Shown: piece by piece, positions 5,092 through 62,226 of the stretch
Layout of the letters: every line of letters begins with the position of its first letter
Position numbering within the stretch: position 1 is the stretch's first letter
From: Akkermansia muciniphila
GTDB taxonomy: Bacteria > Verrucomicrobiota > Verrucomicrobiia > Verrucomicrobiales > DEV007
Assembly (NCBI GenBank): GCA_945883495.1
Contig: CAMCXS010000031.1
Location: forward strand, 1 to 62,226
Reading direction: 5' to 3'
DNA: 62,226 nt
Made by a program: the position numbers and the translations under genes
The notes under the pieces: model-generated
Told to the model about the DNA's origin: nothing
Databases searched by the model: none
The model's input: only the letters and a program-made list of their open reading frames with translations

Positions 5092-5840
5092 AATCGCAGC
5101 TGGACATGGCCATTCGGGTCCGGAACGTCCGCAAGTCGTTTCGCAGTGGTGACGTGGTCACGCCCGTGCTCAAAGGGATCGATTTGGAGATCGCCGCGGG
5201 TGAGCTCTTCTTCATCGTTGGGCCCAGCGGATGTGGGAAAACCACGTTGATCTCGGTGCTCTGCGGGACCTTGGAGGCGGACGAAGGAGGAATCGAGGTC
5301 TTGGGGCATGATTTGCGTGCCTTGAAGCCAGCCCTGGTCACCGCCTTCCGTGCCCGGCACGTGGGCTTTGTGTTCCAACAGTTTCATCTCATTCCAACCC
5401 TCACCGTGGTGGAAAACGTCTCCGTGCCGCTCCGCCTGCAGGGCAAAGGACCAAAGGAAGCGCAACGCGCCGCCGCCGAGATGTTGGAACGCGTGGGACT
5501 CGGCGCAAAGATCGGGGAACGGCCCCACCGCCTGTCCGGTGGCCAACAGCAGCGGGTTGCGATCGCGCGCGCTTTGGTTCATCAACCGGCGCTCATCGTC
5601 TGCGACGAACCGACCTCCGCGTTGGATTCTGAGACCGGCCGCCAGGTGATGGAGTTGCTGACTCCTCAGGGGGGAGAGGCTGCCCGCACCGTGATCGTGG
5701 TGACCCACGATCCGCGGACCTACCATTTCGCGGACCGCATTGCGGAGATGGAGGACGGGGTGGTGCGACGGGTGATGGGCCGCGACGAGGCGGCGCTGGC
5801 GTTTGGCTTTTTTCCTCAAGTCTTCACTCCAACTTCATGA
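5088..5840 (+). CDS. ABC transporter ATPase, DevA/LolD-like
   Basis: A complete 250-residue nucleotide-binding subunit. The Walker A GPSGCGKTT lies near residues 45-53, the signature LSGGQQQRVAIARAL near 150, the Walker B LIVCDEP near 170 and the switch histidine in VTHDP near 206. It belongs to the MacB/LolD/DevA branch that powers FtsX-type permeases, and so drives the permease encoded just upstream. It overlaps both neighbours by ATGA four-base junctions. A second in-frame ATG seven codons in is possible, but the first keeps the coupling pattern. Confidence 0.95.
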   Translation: MKSQLDMAIRVRNVRKSFRSGDVVTPVLKGIDLEIAAGELFFIVGPSGCGKTTLISVLCGTLEADEGGIEVLGHDLRALKPALVTAFRARHVGFVFQQFHLIPTLTVVENVSVPLRLQGKGPKEAQRAAAEMLERVGLGAKIGERPHRLSGGQQQRVAIARALVHQPALIVCDEPTSALDSETGRQVMELLTPQGGEAARTVIVVTHDPRTYHFADRIAEMEDGVVRRVMGRDEAALAFGFFPQVFTPTS

Positions 5841-25917: not shown

Positions 25918-26110
25918 CGGCTGGCCAGCTTTGCTCCGGCAAGGTGAATGACGTCAAACGCGGTCCGGGACTTTTGGAACATGGGGAACCCCGGAACACA
26001 CTGAATACAAGGAACCGCAGCGGGAGGGAGCTTTCACCCTAAGAACCGTACTGGTTTGGCCACTGCGCCTCTGCGCGAGATGCTTCCATTTCCGTTTCTA
26101 GCTAGAATGA

Positions 26111-26404
26111 GGGGTGATTCCCGGCGGGACAATGCCGTCCCAGTCAAAACCAGGGGTGATTCCCGGCGGGACGGCGCCGTCCCAGTCAAAACCAGGGGTG
26201 ATTCTCGGCGGGACGGGGGCGTCCCGGTCAAAACCAAGGGTGATTCTCGGCGGGACGGGGGCGTCCCGGTCAAAACCACGGGTGATTCTTGGCGGGACGG
26301 GGTTGTCGCGGTCAAATCCAGGGGTGATTCTTGGCGGGACGGGGGCGTCCCGGTCAAAACCAAGGGTGATTCTCGGCGGGACGGCGTCGTTCCGGTCAAA
26401 ACCA
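26111..26404. repeat. Tandem array, 7 units of 42 bp
   Basis: Seven head-to-tail units of exactly 42 bases begin at 26111, 26153, 26195, 26237, 26279, 26321 and 26363. Each runs from GGGGTGATTC through a GGCGGGAC...GTCCC palindromic core to GTCAAAACCA. Units differ by a few substitutions and never by an indel. The unit is 14 codons, so frames stay open on both strands (GDSRRDGxVPVKTx on plus). There are no spacers, so it is not CRISPR. It lies in the gap between the convergent queA and the oxidoreductase gene at 26647. Confidence 0.95.
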
Positions 26405-26436
26405 AGGGTCCTTCCTCATCGTCGGCGTGCTTGCGC

Positions 26437-38017: not shown

Positions 38018-38371
38018 GCGCTCCCAGGACTGCGCGTTCTTTTGCCAGACTGGTTCGAGGAACGCTGGGGACTACTGATTCTTTGGTCCGGGTGCTTCCC
38101 TGAGCTCCGGGGACCACCAGATCTTTTTTCCGGCTGCTCCGCTGAGCTCCGGGAACCACTGGATCTTTTTTCCGGCCGGTCCGCTGGGTTCCGGGAACCA
38201 CCAGATCTTTGTTCCGGCTGCTTCCCTGAGCTCCGGGAAGCACTAGATCTTTTTTCCGGCTGCTCTGCTGAGCTCCGGGAAGCACTAGATCTTTTTTCCG
38301 GCTGCTTCCTTGAGCTCCGGGAAGCACTGGATCTTTTTTCTGGCTGCTTCCCTGAGCTCCGGGGACCACCA
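38018..38371. repeat. Second tandem array, about 8 units of 42 bp
   Basis: Six well-conserved units of exactly 42 bases begin at 38102, 38144, 38186, 38228, 38270 and 38312 (GAGCTCCGGGAA...GATCTTTTTTCCGGCTGCTTCCCT). Two decayed units in the same register precede them (38018 and 38060), and an 18-base partial follows. As in the first array, the unit is a multiple of three and long frames stay open on both strands. The sequence is unrelated to the array at 26111. The stretch from 37845 to 38017 holds nothing I recognise. Confidence 0.93.
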
Positions 38372-38440
38372 AATCGATTTGGCGGCGGATCTGAGAAGGC
38401 GGGGCAGGCTGGCACTCCGGCCGGAGTGCATGGGGGAGGG

Positions 38441-39840: not shown

Positions 39841-39844
39841 GCCC

Positions 39845-39932
39845 TCCATCCCTCCATCCCTCCATCACTCCATCACTCCATCACTCCATCACTCCATCAC
39901 TCCATCACTCCATCACTCCATCACTCCATCAC
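39845..39932. repeat. Microsatellite, 11 units of TCCATCAC/TCCATCCC
   Basis: Eleven exact 8-base units: two TCCATCCC followed by nine TCCATCAC. The last unit contains the TGA stop of the minus-strand oxidoreductase gene. The array is a likely slippage site. Confidence 0.97.
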
Positions 39933-41113
39933 TCCCTCGCCAACGGATTCCCGCGCCCGGCCAGGGGCCACGTCACCCGCTTCCCGCCTTCCCGATGGGA
40001 GGCGAAAATGGCGCAGGCCATTTCCACGGTGAGGCGGCCTTGGCGGTCGTCGCAGATGGGAGCGCGATTTTCCTGAATGGCGGCGATCAGATCGAGCCCG
40101 GCGATTTCGTGGGAGCTGAGGCGCTTTGCCAAGTCGGGGAGCGGTTCGGGCTGGCCGATGCCGATGCTGGAGACGGGGACCCAAGGTTGCGCCGCCGCGT
40201 CCGGTTGGAACGGGTTGCCGGCGCGGAAGTGAGCGAGCGGTTCTCGATCGATCCGGAAATCCAGGACGCCTTTGGTGCCGATAACTTGCAGGCCGAATCC
40301 GGCTTCCTTGATGCCTTTGTTTTGGATGGAATCGAAGAAATAAGGGACGCCGGACGCGAGTTCGAAGCGGGCGTGGACTGCGTTTCCGGCTAGCGGTCCG
40401 AGACCTTCGTCGCCTTCGCGAATGTCTTCCGGGCCGCAAGGACGGCCGTCTTGATACAGCATGGCGGAGCAGGCCACGGGATCGCCGCCCAGTCCGGTGG
40501 CCAGATTGGAGACATGGGAGCCGAGAACCCAGAAGTCGAGCGCACCGCCCCGGGCGTCTTCCTTGCCGCGCCCGCGGTATTCCAGAATGGTCCCGAGCTC
40601 GCCGCTTTCGATGAGCCGCTTGGTGACCGGGAAGGCGGGATGGTAGCGGTTGCGATGGGCGATCGCGATTTTCGTGTTGGCCTTCGTAGCGGCGTCGATG
40701 ATGGCGTCGGCCTCGGCTGGGGTGCGGCAGAAGGGCTTTTCAATGTAAATGCCGCGGGCACCGGCCTCAATGGCGGCGAGGCAGAAGTCGTGGTGTTGAT
40801 CGACCTGCCGGGGGCCCACCGCGACGATGTCCGGTTTGGTTTCCGCGAGCATCTTGCGGTAATCGGCGAACGGCTGAGGAGAGCCGAGGCGGGTGAGGGC
40901 TCCAGCGAGGCCGGCCGGATCGGGATCGGCGACGGCGACGATTTTGGTTTGCGGGAGGCGCAGCCACATGATGTCGAGACCGTGGCCGTAGTTGCCCCGG
41001 CCGGTGTGGCCGATGACGGCGACGCGGAAGGGCTCGGAAGGAGAATTCGCGGCGCGCAGCGTGGAGGCGAAGAGGGCGGAGGCGCTGGAGGCGAGAAGTT
41101 GGCGTCGGTTCAT
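39929..41113 (-). CDS. Gfo/Idh/MocA-family oxidoreductase, exported
   Basis: A 394-residue oxidoreductase with a twin-arginine-like signal (MNRRQLLASSASALFA) and a Rossmann domain: FRVAVIGHTGRGNYGHG near residue 30 and a catalytic-type EKPFCRTPAEAD near 123, the Lys of the E-K-P motif. The C-terminal alpha/beta domain includes GGALDFWVLGSHVSNLATG. Exported members are numerous in Verrucomicrobia and act on sugars or their derivatives with a tightly bound NAD(P); the substrate is unknown. The ATG at 41113 is chosen because it starts the signal. The stop codon lies in the 8-bp microsatellite. The gene is divergent from lysS, 73 bases away. Confidence 0.88.
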   Translation of the reverse strand: MNRRQLLASSASALFASTLRAANSPSEPFRVAVIGHTGRGNYGHGLDIMWLRLPQTKIVAVADPDPAGLAGALTRLGSPQPFADYRKMLAETKPDIVAVGPRQVDQHHDFCLAAIEAGARGIYIEKPFCRTPAEADAIIDAATKANTKIAIAHRNRYHPAFPVTKRLIESGELGTILEYRGRGKEDARGGALDFWVLGSHVSNLATGLGGDPVACSAMLYQDGRPCGPEDIREGDEGLGPLAGNAVHARFELASGVPYFFDSIQNKGIKEAGFGLQVIGTKGVLDFRIDREPLAHFRAGNPFQPDAAAQPWVPVSSIGIGQPEPLPDLAKRLSSHEIAGLDLIAAIQENRAPICDDRQGRLTVEMACAIFASHREGGKRVTWPLAGRGNPLARE

Positions 41114-43195: not shown

Positions 43196-43478
43196 AGGCC
43201 CAACGGGCCGGGACATGGTAGCCCAGGGCACAGCGAGGAACGAGCGAAGCCCTGGGTTCTCCACCCGATTTGGGCAAAGTCCTGCAAGGGCGAGACAACG
43301 GTTGTCCCGCACCTTATCCTCCGCTTCGCTCCGGCTCTCCCAGATTGCCTTCGGCCAATGTCATTGCTGCTGCCGCAGCAGGTAGTCAGCGCGGATGCAA
43401 AACTCCACCGCAACCCAGGCCTACGGGCGCCCGAGGCGCCCTCCGACCTGGGCTACCATGTCCCGGCCCGTTGGGCCT
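43196..43478. mobile_element. 283-bp element with 31-bp perfect inverted repeats
   Basis: The ends 43196-43226 and 43448-43478 are exact reverse complements over 31 bases. Inside are a second inverted pair (CCTGGGTT / AACCCAGG) and a palindrome GACAACGGTTGTC. No transposase or convincing frame is inside. The structure is MITE-like or a large interspersed palindromic repeat. The rest of the 43122-43630 gap holds no supported gene. No target-site duplication was identified by eye. Confidence 0.85.
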
Positions 43479-58853: not shown

Positions 58854-61637
58854 TTATTGCTCCAAGATGCGGAAAAAGGAGCGCTCCGTGAGGTTCACCG
58901 GATCGGCTTCAAAGGTCTGGAGGGTGCCCAAGCCCGCGGCCGAGCCTAGGTTCTCCCAGTCCGTCAGATTCTGACTGCGCTGGACCAGATAGGTTTTCCC
59001 CGATTTCGTCTGTAGGCTGATCTGCAGTTTGCCGCCACTCGCGGTCACGTCGGCCAGCTCAAGCACCGGCGGTTCGGGCACGGTGAAGTTCACCAGGTTC
59101 GAGACGTTGGTGTAGGAATCGTTGGTGAACAGTCCCACATAATAGTTCCCCGGGGCGGGAATGTTCTGGAAGGTGACGCTCCCCGCCGTCCGGCCGCCGA
59201 CATAGAGATAATCCACCAAGGTGCCGTCCGCGCCTACGCCAGGAGTTGAGCCCTCACGGAAGATGCCGATGTAGTCTTTGGGGATTCCCGGACCGTCGCT
59301 GAAGTTCACTGTAAAGGTGGAACCATAGCTCCATTCAGATGGGCAGGAGACTGCCGAAATTTCCGACCCGACCGAGAAATAAATCCGGTCGCAAATTTCG
59401 AAGTAGGCGTCATTGACCATGTAAACCGCATAGTAATATCCCTTGGGGAAGCCCGTGAAGTTGAGTGTTCCCGACGCGGTGGTGACATAGCTCCACTTGG
59501 TGGAAGTCACGCCTCCAACCCCGGGTGATTGTCCCACCCGGTAGGTTCCGATCCAGTCCAGGTTGCGCCCGGTTGCGGTGGTCGCCGGAGCATTCGAGAA
59601 CGTAATCTGCACGGTCTCGCCCTCGTTATACGCTGCTTTGTTCGCAGCAATCACCGGTGTGCTGCCAACGAAGAAGGGCACGCGGGAGGCTACTTCGGTA
59701 TAGCCATCGTTGGCAAAGAAAGCTGCATACCACTCGCCGACCGCGAAGTTCGTCGTGAAGAGCAAACTGCCGCTCAGAACCGGGGTGGACGGGGCGGTGC
59801 GGCTCCGGTTGAGATAGAACCAATCGGTCGAGGCCACTGGGCCCGGCGTTTGACCTTTCTTGTAGATACCGATCCAGTCCCTCGTGCCCCCGGGGCCGTA
59901 TTCAAAAGTCACGCTAAAGTCTTCGTTCAAGGCAAAGACTTTCTTGGTCAGGCTGATGCCCGGCGTTCCGGTGGTGCTGCCTTGGATGGTGAATTGCTTG
60001 GTGGCGGACCAAGCAGACCACACGGCATTGGTATCGCGGTGCCGCACCCGGACATAGTAATCGCCATTCGCCAAGCCTCCCGCCGCGATCGTCCAATTGG
60101 TGATATCCACGGCGGCGTTCAGATTTACCGGCTCGTAATTCGGCGCTCCGGTGTCTCCATAAATATCTTCGATGTCGCGGATGCTATCGACCTTGAGGCT
60201 GGTAAACGCGGAGTCCTTGGCGATTTGATATTGCACGCTGTTTAGCGTCTCCGCCGTGGTGGTGGAGAAGGCGGAGCTTTGCAGTACCAAGGGAAGCGTC
60301 ACGGTGCCCGTCAAGGTGTTCGTGATCGAAGGGGTCGCTGGAGCGGGCAAGCCGAGTTGACGGTGGAAGCGATCGATCAAGCGGCTGTTGTAGGCTTTGG
60401 TGGTCCAGCGCTCCGCTTGCGAGAAGCGCACGTTGGCCTCCGCGTAGCACTCGACATCCAGGCGCCGGTTCGCGAGATCGAAATCGAGGGTTTGCCAAGC
60501 CCAATTCGCGATGGTCTTTTGGACGTCGTCGTAGTTTGCCTCCGTCGATTGTCCCCAATACTGATCCCAGGCCGAAGCGCCGGAGATGATATGATACACG
60601 GGCCAGTCACGGGTTTGTCCCCGTGCGTAGAGATGGTGGTGGGCGCCGATCGTGAGGACGTGCTTCTCGGTTTGCGCCAAGATCGGCATCACGGTGGTGC
60701 GGAACCAGGACGAGATATCACCGATATATTGCTCCGCTTGATACGGGCGGTGACAGAGGCTGATGATGAAGTCGACGCTGGTGTCGGTCTTCGCGGCGTT
60801 GACGATGCTTTGTGCCCAGCTGGCCTGCGTGGTGCCGGTATGTTCGCTGCTGAGGTGGATGAAAAGGATGTTGGCGAGCTGGTGGGCGTAGTAGACCTCA
60901 GGGAGCGGGCTGGAGATCCCCTGGTAGATCAACGCATCGTAGTAGAACAGGTTCTTATACAACGTCAGGTTGCTGTCGGAGTAGGTCTCATGATTTCCAA
61001 TCGTGGTCATGAACCCGAGGTTGGGGGACACGGACTTACTGTATGCAAAGTGCAGCCAGCGGTAATGCTCCAAGGTGCCCACGTCCACCTGGTCTCCCAC
61101 ATTCAGGACGAGATCGAAGGCTTCCTCGATCGGGGCGGCATATTTGGCTTCGATTTTGGCCTTGGCCCGTTCGATCATTTTGGCCCAGCGCTGTTCGCTG
61201 GAAAGAATCTGATTGTCTCCCAGGACGAGAACCCGGAAGCGGCCTGTTTTGGTGCCGGCTGGAGGGGGCGTGCGGAAACGGAAGACCGCGGAGGTCTGTT
61301 GTTCCGTGCGGACCTGGTAATAGTAGTAGGTGCCAGGAGTGAGCCCGGTGATTTGCGCCGAATGGTAGCGGTAGTTGGTGCCCAGATTTTGCATTCCGCC
61401 CGTGACGGTATTTGTCAAGGCGGCCGCGCTGGTGCCCCAATCGACAAAGCTGTTGGACGCAGTGTCCGACCACCAGGATACCCACACAGAGTTGGGACGG
61501 ATGGTTTGCAGGTAGGGCCGCAAACTGCTGGCTTGGCCTTGCGCCGAAGCGGTCGTGCGATCGAGGAGCCAGAGGCCGAGCACTCCATGAGAGGCGAGGC
61601 CGGCACCGGTGAGCCTGATGAATTCGGAGCGTTTCAT
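58854..61637 (-). CDS. Secreted purple acid phosphatase-like protein with repeat modules
   Basis: A 927-residue protein with an N-terminal export signal (MKRSEFIRLTGAGLASHGVL), a fibronectin-III-like purple-acid-phosphatase N-domain (about 35-125) and a metallophosphatase domain (about 130-400) with VLGDNQ, NVGDQVD, IGNHE, LCHRP and GAHHHLY carrying metal ligands. After an Ig-like linker (about 430-570), three tandem modules of about 95 residues follow (about 575-860), each with D-W/Y-IG-I/T-Y/F, a G-x-(T/S)-PG turn and a late YY/YA...NDxY strand. The C-terminus (about 870-927) resembles a terminal sorting domain. Substrate unknown; the modules may bind glycans or the cell surface. Confidence 0.88.
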   Translation of the reverse strand: MKRSEFIRLTGAGLASHGVLGLWLLDRTTASAQGQASSLRPYLQTIRPNSVWVSWWSDTASNSFVDWGTSAAALTNTVTGGMQNLGTNYRYHSAQITGLTPGTYYYYQVRTEQQTSAVFRFRTPPPAGTKTGRFRVLVLGDNQILSSEQRWAKMIERAKAKIEAKYAAPIEEAFDLVLNVGDQVDVGTLEHYRWLHFAYSKSVSPNLGFMTTIGNHETYSDSNLTLYKNLFYYDALIYQGISSPLPEVYYAHQLANILFIHLSSEHTGTTQASWAQSIVNAAKTDTSVDFIISLCHRPYQAEQYIGDISSWFRTTVMPILAQTEKHVLTIGAHHHLYARGQTRDWPVYHIISGASAWDQYWGQSTEANYDDVQKTIANWAWQTLDFDLANRRLDVECYAEANVRFSQAERWTTKAYNSRLIDRFHRQLGLPAPATPSITNTLTGTVTLPLVLQSSAFSTTTAETLNSVQYQIAKDSAFTSLKVDSIRDIEDIYGDTGAPNYEPVNLNAAVDITNWTIAAGGLANGDYYVRVRHRDTNAVWSAWSATKQFTIQGSTTGTPGISLTKKVFALNEDFSVTFEYGPGGTRDWIGIYKKGQTPGPVASTDWFYLNRSRTAPSTPVLSGSLLFTTNFAVGEWYAAFFANDGYTEVASRVPFFVGSTPVIAANKAAYNEGETVQITFSNAPATTATGRNLDWIGTYRVGQSPGVGGVTSTKWSYVTTASGTLNFTGFPKGYYYAVYMVNDAYFEICDRIYFSVGSEISAVSCPSEWSYGSTFTVNFSDGPGIPKDYIGIFREGSTPGVGADGTLVDYLYVGGRTAGSVTFQNIPAPGNYYVGLFTNDSYTNVSNLVNFTVPEPPVLELADVTASGGKLQISLQTKSGKTYLVQRSQNLTDWENLGSAAGLGTLQTFEADPVNLTERSFFRILEQ

Positions 61638-62052
61638 GGGAGACTCGCTGGAAGTAGAAAGCATGTGCTCGCATCAAACGAATCGCCGTTCCACCGCGCT
61701 AACGTGACGTTTTCGAAAGGTTTCGCCTAGATTCGGGAATGACTTGGCCGCGCGCAGAGACGCAGAACGGGACTGGAGTTACGAGATACGATTGACGATT
61801 TTTGATTTCCGCACTGTGAAGGGCGAAGAGCGATCTTGCGCTCAGCTGGAAAGACTCCGGTTCTTCGATTCTGGAGCGAAGCGGATGGTAACCCAACCCA
61901 ATGTCCGCTATGATTCTCCGCGCTCTCTGCGGCTCTGGTGCGAGGCCTCCATCTTCGTATTTAGCAGGCAATCCACGGGGCGCGGATGTGGAACGGAGAG
62001 TAACTTTTCGGCTCCCGGGCCCGCAAGTTAGCCTGGAGGCTCAACGGTGTTT
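61638..62052. other. Intergenic region with imperfect inverted repeat
   Basis: No supported gene. Short frames on both strands do not look like proteins. An imperfect inverted pair, CAGAGACGCAGA (about 61755) against TCTGCGGCTCTG (about 61928), is a repeat type also present in one copy near 26063-26080 (CTGCGCCTCTGCG). It may be a degraded interspersed element. Confidence 0.45.
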
Positions 62053-62160
62053 CGATTACGAGCACGAGCACGAGCACGAGCACGAGGGAAGATACGAAGG
62101 GCCGATGGAAGGAGACGAAGTTCGTTTTCAATCTCGTGCTCGTGCTCGTGCTCGTAATCG
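62053..62160. repeat. Hexamer-armed palindromic element, full copy
   Basis: Left arm 62053-62086 is CGATTA followed by (CGAGCA)n; right arm 62133-62160 is the exact reverse complement of its first 28 bases, the left arm having one hexamer more. Between them is a 46-base core. The core and part of one arm recur, inverted, at 1-61. Both strands stay open as alternating EHEHEH or RARARA. The last 66 bases of the window, beyond the element, show no gene. Confidence 0.92.
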
Positions 62161-62226
62161 AGTTTGAATCGGTTCATCAAAACTCCCACTCCACCAAGCT
62201 CGGTCCCCTCGCTCCCGCCCAGTAAA

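Follow-up and report, generated by a model that had tools for sequence, protein, structure and literature searches.

Background

Several kinds of short repeated sequences in bacteria come close to the palindrome that we describe here. The intervening sequences (IVS) of 23S rRNA genes carry inverted repeats and an S23 open reading frame, are excised by RNase III and have been proposed to be of mobile origin (PMC4990558). Like them, the element at the end of our window (by which we mean the whole stretch of 62,226 nucleotides that was analysed) is small and sporadic and has inverted terminal repeats that form a long stem. Unlike them, it has arms made of tandem hexamers, no open reading frame (its core is 46-47 nt long) and, in the copy L004, no rRNA match; three related loci (L078, L082 and L228) gave no such match either. 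The IVP cassettes treated below encode the same protein family as the open reading frame of these IVS, but they lie between other genes.

According to PMC3733652, the REP and REPIN sequences that go with RAYT are palindromes tagged with GTAG or CGTC and are present in the PVC group. They resemble the window element in being short intergenic palindromic repeats in many copies. As described there, however, they are 20-40 bp long with GTAG or CGTC at one end, whereas our element is longer, has arms of tandem units and shows neither tag at its ends. A MITE of P. gingivalis contains a minisatellite (PMC4596501). The unit in which our palindrome is embedded is similar to MITEs in being short, non-coding and dispersed, with tandem repeats inside; it differs from them in that no terminal inverted repeats, clear target duplication or parent IS were found for it.

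Tandem heptamer repeats such as TAACTGA are described as direct repeats in PMC4679880. These heptamers and the cyanobacterial STRR have in common with the palindrome arms that they are tandem repeats of a short unit, placed between genes, in distant lineages. In contrast to them, the arms are paired and inverted around a cargo. The terms "intervening sequence", "four helix bundle" and "S23" do not occur in the main text of PMC4679880. In open-access titles and the beginnings of abstracts, which is a weak basis for a negative, we were not able to find a description of GAGCAC palindromes or of inverted tandem arms around IVP genes. The window element has the arm build of the inverted short-tandem-arm cassettes reported below, that is, short tandem units, inverted, around a core or a gene.

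Structure of the palindrome

The window is a complete contig (C31 of 206) of a draft genome of 6.46 Mb. Both its ends are contig ends, and each lies within a copy of the same repeat. The copy at the right end is on the forward strand and begins with a module that we call H (61969-62039, CAATCCACGG ... GCAAGTTAGCCTGGAGG), the left limit of which is uncertain and may lie a few to tens of nucleotides earlier. A joint (CTCAACGGTGTT, 62040-62051), common to most of the core-bearing copies shown, leads from module H to the left arm (62052-62086), which consists of TCGATTAC and GAGCAC hexamers. Then follow the non-coding core (62087-62132), the right arm (62133-62161), made of GTGCTC hexamers and GTAATCGA, and a tail (62162-62226) that is cut by the contig end; full copies run on to ...CTGGATCGAGTTAGTCGGGAGG.

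The right arm is a perfect inverted repeat of 62052-62080 (29 nt, 100% complementary, 52 nt between the two). TRF reports a period of 6 for both arms and counts 4.8 units in the left one and 3.8 in the right one, so that they differ by one hexamer. Allowing at most one mismatch, CGAGCACGAGCA has 7 matches against 0.53 expected, a number reached in none of 100 shuffles. As DNA, the stretch 62050-62163 folds with -41.1 kcal/mol, against a mean of -17.0 for shuffled sequences (z = -9.9). The first-pass annotation had described arms that can form a hairpin or cruciform and are unequal by one hexamer, and these values agree with it. It had also taken the arms for the limits of the element; this was too narrow, as the repeat extends past them on both sides.

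At the other end of the window there is a second copy on the reverse strand (1-60), with right-arm hexamers at 1-21 and about 40 of the 46 core nucleotides at 22-60. What had been called a second, intact copy of the core is therefore truncated: from the junction 60/61, which lies inside the core, the sequence is unrelated. Two other contigs, C67 and C122, also end with this junction and agree with the window in every one of exactly 99 nt that remain to them, which looks like an assembly-graph overlap. Elsewhere in the window, CTCCATCA is repeated 11.5 times at 39844-39935; its reverse complement occurs once in the window, at 5647, and this is hence a tandem array with one arm.

Copies in the source genome

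A search of the source genome with a query of 136 nt returned 104 matching pieces. The core is found at 27 places (L001-L027), three of which are the truncated ends at one junction in the window, C67 and C122; contig ends also interrupt some other core-bearing copies (L018, L019). The spread that had been suspected from merely two copies is thus confirmed on a larger scale. Five further copies have the arms and the tail and lack the core (L055, L069, two at L071/L072 and one at L066), and in L020 the core is inverted relative to its flanks.

The length of the arms was measured in 20 copies. It changes by whole hexamers, from 1 to 12 GAGCAC on the left and from 1 to 6 GTGCTC on the right, as had been predicted from the tandem structure. 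By the motif used, the core is 47 nt long in 18 of these copies. Also in 18 of the 20, the array of the left arm is broken by a mini-hairpin insert of the CGCTTCGCT type, which is missing from the window copy and from L011.

The first-pass annotation had further proposed that the core might be specially conserved. Over 19 copies, the core had on average 0.070 pairwise substitutions per site, module H 0.063 and the tail 0.048. The core is no more conserved than its surroundings, which speaks for spread and not for constraint. The idea that the core is a known ncRNA was rejected as well: a search of four loci (L004, L078, L082, L228) against Rfam gave no family above threshold, and of the four sub-threshold hits none was at the element.

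Long protein reading frames flank several copies. The window palindrome lies upstream of a minus-strand open reading frame (58854-61664, metallophosphatase-like by eye), and some copies (L003, L004, L013) sit between convergent long reading frames. At L003 (contig C21, near 54.7 kb) the element is placed between the PhoH and ZnuA genes. In each of the two congeners (G001 and G002), the relatives of these two genes are found on two different contigs, which is a break of synteny at the sole locus that was compared; it may be either a rearrangement point or a contig break.

An inverted repeat of 51 nt with 82% complementarity (AGGCCCAACGGGCCGGGACATG...) is present in the window at 43196-43478. 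It resembles a repeat that is found just downstream of the copies L002, L005, L007 and L009.

Distribution in other genomes

In a set of 57 genomes (the source genome and 56 relatives) long matches were confined to the source genome, and short matches occurred in six others. Whether the hexamer by itself makes these six homologues was decided by reading all of them: they are runs of the hexamer within coding sequence or close to it, and were rejected. Of 384 genomes of the class, 31 matched, including the source genome. Among the matches listed outside it, all were to the hexamer part of the query save for one weak match (G416). Similarly, in plasmid and phage collections the matches (5 and 1 records) were confined to the part of the query with the hexamer arms.

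We then scanned the contigs of named genomes for inverted GAGCAC arms that are 40-70 nt apart. Of the eight stretches found, three Planctomycetota MAGs account for seven and a Verrucomicrobiota MAG for one (L087). The Planctomycetota stretches share variants of CGATTACGAGCACGAGCACCG...CTGAGCACGAGCACGA with the source genome, and do not share the core; L087 shares the hexamers alone. The exact 17-mer ATTACGAGCACGAGCAC has 59 occurrences in the source genome (G000); the three Planctomycetota MAGs have 40, 17 and 17. It was also seen twice in G258 and once in G106, and in none of four others searched. As a control, the reversed pattern occurs nowhere in G000 and the three Planctomycetota MAGs, once in G301 and otherwise not at all.

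The arm module ATTACGAGCAC..CTGAGCACGA was searched for as the gapped pattern ATTACGAGCACN{2,26}CTGAGCACGA. This pattern was found 27 times in the source genome and in none of the 386 other Verrucomicrobiota that were sampled. Among 294 Planctomycetota genomes, two have it, one 24 times and the other 15 times; one of these two is the genome on which the search was centred (G428). The case considered at the outset, namely that the element has no relatives elsewhere, does not apply, since a few Planctomycetota carry the arm module repeatedly. Arms that point outward are present at five loci of G425, at one of G428 and at six places in the source genome (L229-L232, L234, L235); L227, L228 and L233 have one arm. 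Pairs of arm motifs 2.7 kb apart in G425 were tried as gene-carrying elements and rejected, as ordinary long reading frames lie between them. In another locus of G425 (L138, contig C44, a Planctomycetota MAG) a broken IVP gene stands beside an apparent degenerate CGATTACGAGCACCG..CTGAG arm, as seen by eye.

The mini-hairpin insert in the arm arrays lies between GAGCACC and TGAGCACGA, and its ends pair. In the source genome they are GC-TTC-GC, and in Planctomycetota GT..AC, GTCGC..GCGAC or GTCCGCC..GGCGGAC. In 26 distinct inserts, 96 out of 103 end-to-end positions pair and seven do not. When the 3' halves were swapped between inserts of equal length, the mean was 91.9, and 47 of 5000 such swaps reached 96. 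A looser control was weaker than this one: a stem of at least 2 bp was found in 21 of 25 inserts, against a mean of 13.4 and a maximum of 21 for the swaps. At the level of sequence, we take these comparisons to show that the small hairpin of the arm module covaries and is common to the source genome and the distant Planctomycetota.

A similar arrangement has reportedly been found before: the small dispersed repeats (SDR) of Nostoc (Elhai et al. 2008) are reported to be cyanobacterial repeats of 21-27 nt, with tiny hairpins that show compensatory changes and are embedded in heptamers. They share with the insert in the GAGCAC arrays a hairpin with compensatory changes inside tandem repeats, as seen in the 96 paired positions. 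They differ from it in that our arrays consist of hexamers, occur in other phyla and are arranged as inverted pairs around a core.

Inverted arms around IVP genes

The source genome has 11 matches to the IVP/S23 family of 23S rRNA intervening-sequence proteins (PF05635), eight of which we read, leaving out the three weakest. A reading of the flanks showed inverted arms of short tandem units at most of these eight loci. No part of the element was found within 380 nt of the eight genes, which rules out, for the loci read, that the IVP genes of the source genome are direct neighbours of the palindrome.

To quantify the arms, the left flank of 250 nt was aligned to the reverse complement of the right flank. 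The cut-off score of 26 is the 99th percentile of 211 positions of the same geometry in the same loci (maximum 29). A first set of 37 IVP genes consisted of the eight from the source genome and the 29 best hits from other genomes of the class; 29 of the 37 scored above 26 in inverted and three in direct orientation. A rerun, in which one gene was dropped because of short flanks, gave 28 of 36. The 40 genes of a second set were taken down the hit list blind to their flanks, skipping the rows of the source genome, two hits at the start of a contig, two that contain stops and two for which no reason was recorded. Here 37 of 40 passed in inverted and four in direct orientation. In summary, 66 of the 77 Verrucomicrobiota IVP genes (L031-L038, L106-L134, L146-L185) lie between inverted arms. 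Genes with a PIN domain served as a control, and none of 28 passed (30 were taken and two dropped for short flanks). Pairing the flanks of different IVP genes gave a mean of 18.9, a 95th percentile of 25, a 99th percentile of 37 and a maximum of 208.

With a period match of 75% over 28 nt as the criterion, one flank or both show a clear tandem pattern for 45 of 76 IVP genes (21/40 and 24/36) and for one of the 28 PIN genes; both flanks show it for 22 of 76 (12/40 and 10/36) and for none of the PIN genes. The units of the IVP arms are mostly 7 nt long and differ from gene to gene, and those of the palindrome are 6 nt long. GAGCAC or GATTAC arms were found within 300 bp of none of the 77 genes. 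At one locus (L133) the IVP gene has GACGCGGAG arms which, by eye, are like a module U that is found upstream of many copies of the element; a search for module U in L031-L040 gave no match.

Armed cassettes on plasmids

Relatives of IVP occur on 32 plasmid records, mostly cyanobacterial. Twelve of them (L277-L288) were taken for the arm test, with flanks that begin 20-24 nt inside the annotated gene, and all 12 passed in inverted orientation. For L281 the direct score (129) is higher than the inverted one (50). When flanks of different plasmid genes were cross-paired, 18 of 132 pairs exceeded 26, because these hosts share heptamers. The neighbours of the plasmid genes include nrdB/nrdA (L277), cas6/cas4 (L281, L284) and cas10/cmr3 (L287).

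In plasmid C of Trichormus variabilis (L288) the arms and the IVP gene form an insert of 428 bp, which is missing from Nostoc linckia (L289) and Microchaete diplosiphon (L290), with flanks that are 97.7-99.7% identical. GTAAT stands on both sides of the insert and once in the empty site, and the 428 bp include this duplicated GTAAT (5 bp). There are further pairs of present and absent cassettes: in L285/L295 and L283/L296, whose flanks are 93-97% identical, the site holds 16 and 42 nt of other sequence, and L277/L292, at the nrd genes, has 13 nt at the site and flanks of 86-88%. The pair L279/L299 is not clean, with 162 nt at the site.

Arms without an IVP gene were found at the L288 site (L294, about 75 nt) and at the L283 site (L297, about 210 nt); a third such insert (L298, 234 nt) is missing from L285. 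With the partly deleted cassette of L291, the L288 site is seen in four states (L288-L291, L293, L294): empty, with a full cassette, with a partly deleted one and with the gene-less palindrome of L294. A search with the core of L294 gave no convincing further plasmid copies. In build, nothing else comes closer to the window palindrome than these armed inserts without a gene.

Module H and the outer borders

Module H has 36 matches in the source genome, and its own fold is ordinary (z = -0.33). Copies without the palindrome are found at L078, L082, L066 and L076, where H ends in similar AGTTAG..GGGAGG or in GGTAGCCGGGAGG. In the congener G001 there is one palindrome-free copy (contig C136, L272; 90% over 71 nt). 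Since H occurs without the palindrome both in the source genome and in this congener, we infer that an older repeat carries the palindrome as a passenger. In L081, a different armed insert occupies the same position in H, with GCAAGTTAG direct repeats on both sides.

The right border of the copies is well defined. The tail ends in CTGGATCGAGTTAGTCGGGAGG, after which the flanks diverge in most copies, often into N-T-N-A; L002, L005, L007 and L009 share a further repeat beyond this point. The end of module H (GGGAGG) marks the right border of the palindrome-bearing unit, and the inverted arms are internal to that unit. By reading, the start of H (CAATCCACGG) and the end of the tail (AGTCGGGAGG) are not reverse complements, so that the unit has no inverted repeats at its ends, and no consistent direct repeat was seen at its outer borders. 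A near-repeat, AGTTAGYCKGGAGG, stands on both sides of the inner palindrome and can be read as a duplication or as recombination between copies of H.

Potentially, the palindrome is nothing but such a passenger: H would be a MITE-like repeat moved by an unrecognised transposase, one H that carried a GAGCAC palindrome would have been amplified, the arms would be inert and their likeness to those of IVP genes would be convergence. The solo copies of H, the exact coincidence of the composite end with the end of H, and the about equal divergence of H, core and tail are in keeping with this. On the other hand, H has neither mutually inverted ends nor a visible target duplication. Moreover, the outward-armed modules of the source genome lie at places without a match to H, and such modules are also present in Planctomycetota (the search for H concerned places in the source genome). 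We therefore regard this explanation as possible and rather doubtful.

The window contains two minisatellites with units of 42 bp, at 26110-26409 and 38067-38375, of about 7 units each. In L078, the solo copy of H has on its right side units that by eye are like those of the first.

Discussion

On balance, we lean towards the view that the window element is a non-autonomous, non-coding mobile palindrome, with arms of tandem units around a short core, that has spread inside module H. That it has spread follows from its many dispersed copies, which have a common right border and mostly different flanks. On cyanobacterial plasmids, mobility in the sense of presence and absence is seen for cassettes that have this build; for the GAGCAC palindrome it is suggested by this parallel. 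A mechanism shared with the IVP cassettes would likewise be suggested by analogy, and the arm sequences of the two differ. Alternatively, module H may be the vehicle of the palindrome.

A less specific origin would be a microsatellite that grew by slippage and foldback template-switching and was scattered by gene conversion or segmental duplication, with no transposition enzyme. The variation of the arms by whole hexamers, the flipped and core-less forms and the occurrence of hexamer runs in unrelated coding genes would all fit. It is nevertheless improbable, as the copies share long non-repetitive parts (core, H and tail) and the same right border in different flanks, and as a specific 17-mer, beyond GAGCAC, is common to two phyla. 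A regulatory or RNA element kept for its function (a terminator, processing signal or attenuator) would agree with the strong foldback and with the position upstream of the frame 58854-61664 or between convergent frames, but is most improbable given a core no more conserved than its neighbourhood and missing or flipped in some copies, only short hexamer matches in 56 relatives and no Rfam family above threshold.

If the window element is indeed a mobile palindrome, its arms would pair in single-stranded DNA or RNA, and a protein provided in trans would copy the folded form and insert it. The leading candidate for this protein would be IVP/S23, or a machinery that IVP/S23 serves. Slippage would then shift the length of the arms, and their inverted arrangement would allow the core to be flipped or lost.

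There is maybe a more general link, which we put forward tentatively and hold to be somewhat unlikely as it stands. The elements could form one widespread class, defined by paired, inverted arms whose short tandem units change freely in sequence. The autonomous form would carry an IVP/S23 gene, the gene-less members would be palindromes such as the one described here, and the intervening sequences of 23S rRNA would be members that landed in rRNA. IVP is a four-helix-bundle protein that we take to be a relative of the retroelement factor Avd; it would act on the folded arms and would need no fixed end sequence. If true, this would account both for the differences in arm units from copy to copy and for the short tandem repeats that litter these genomes.

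Taken by itself, the GAGCAC palindrome family adds one narrowly distributed case to the known palindromic repeats. Its build links two puzzles, the short tandem repeats scattered over many bacterial genomes and the role of the IVP/S23 proteins. The plasmid pairs with and without a cassette, one of them with a 5-bp duplication, make the mobility of IVP cassettes and of gene-less palindromes testable in culturable Nostoc, Trichormus and Anabaena.
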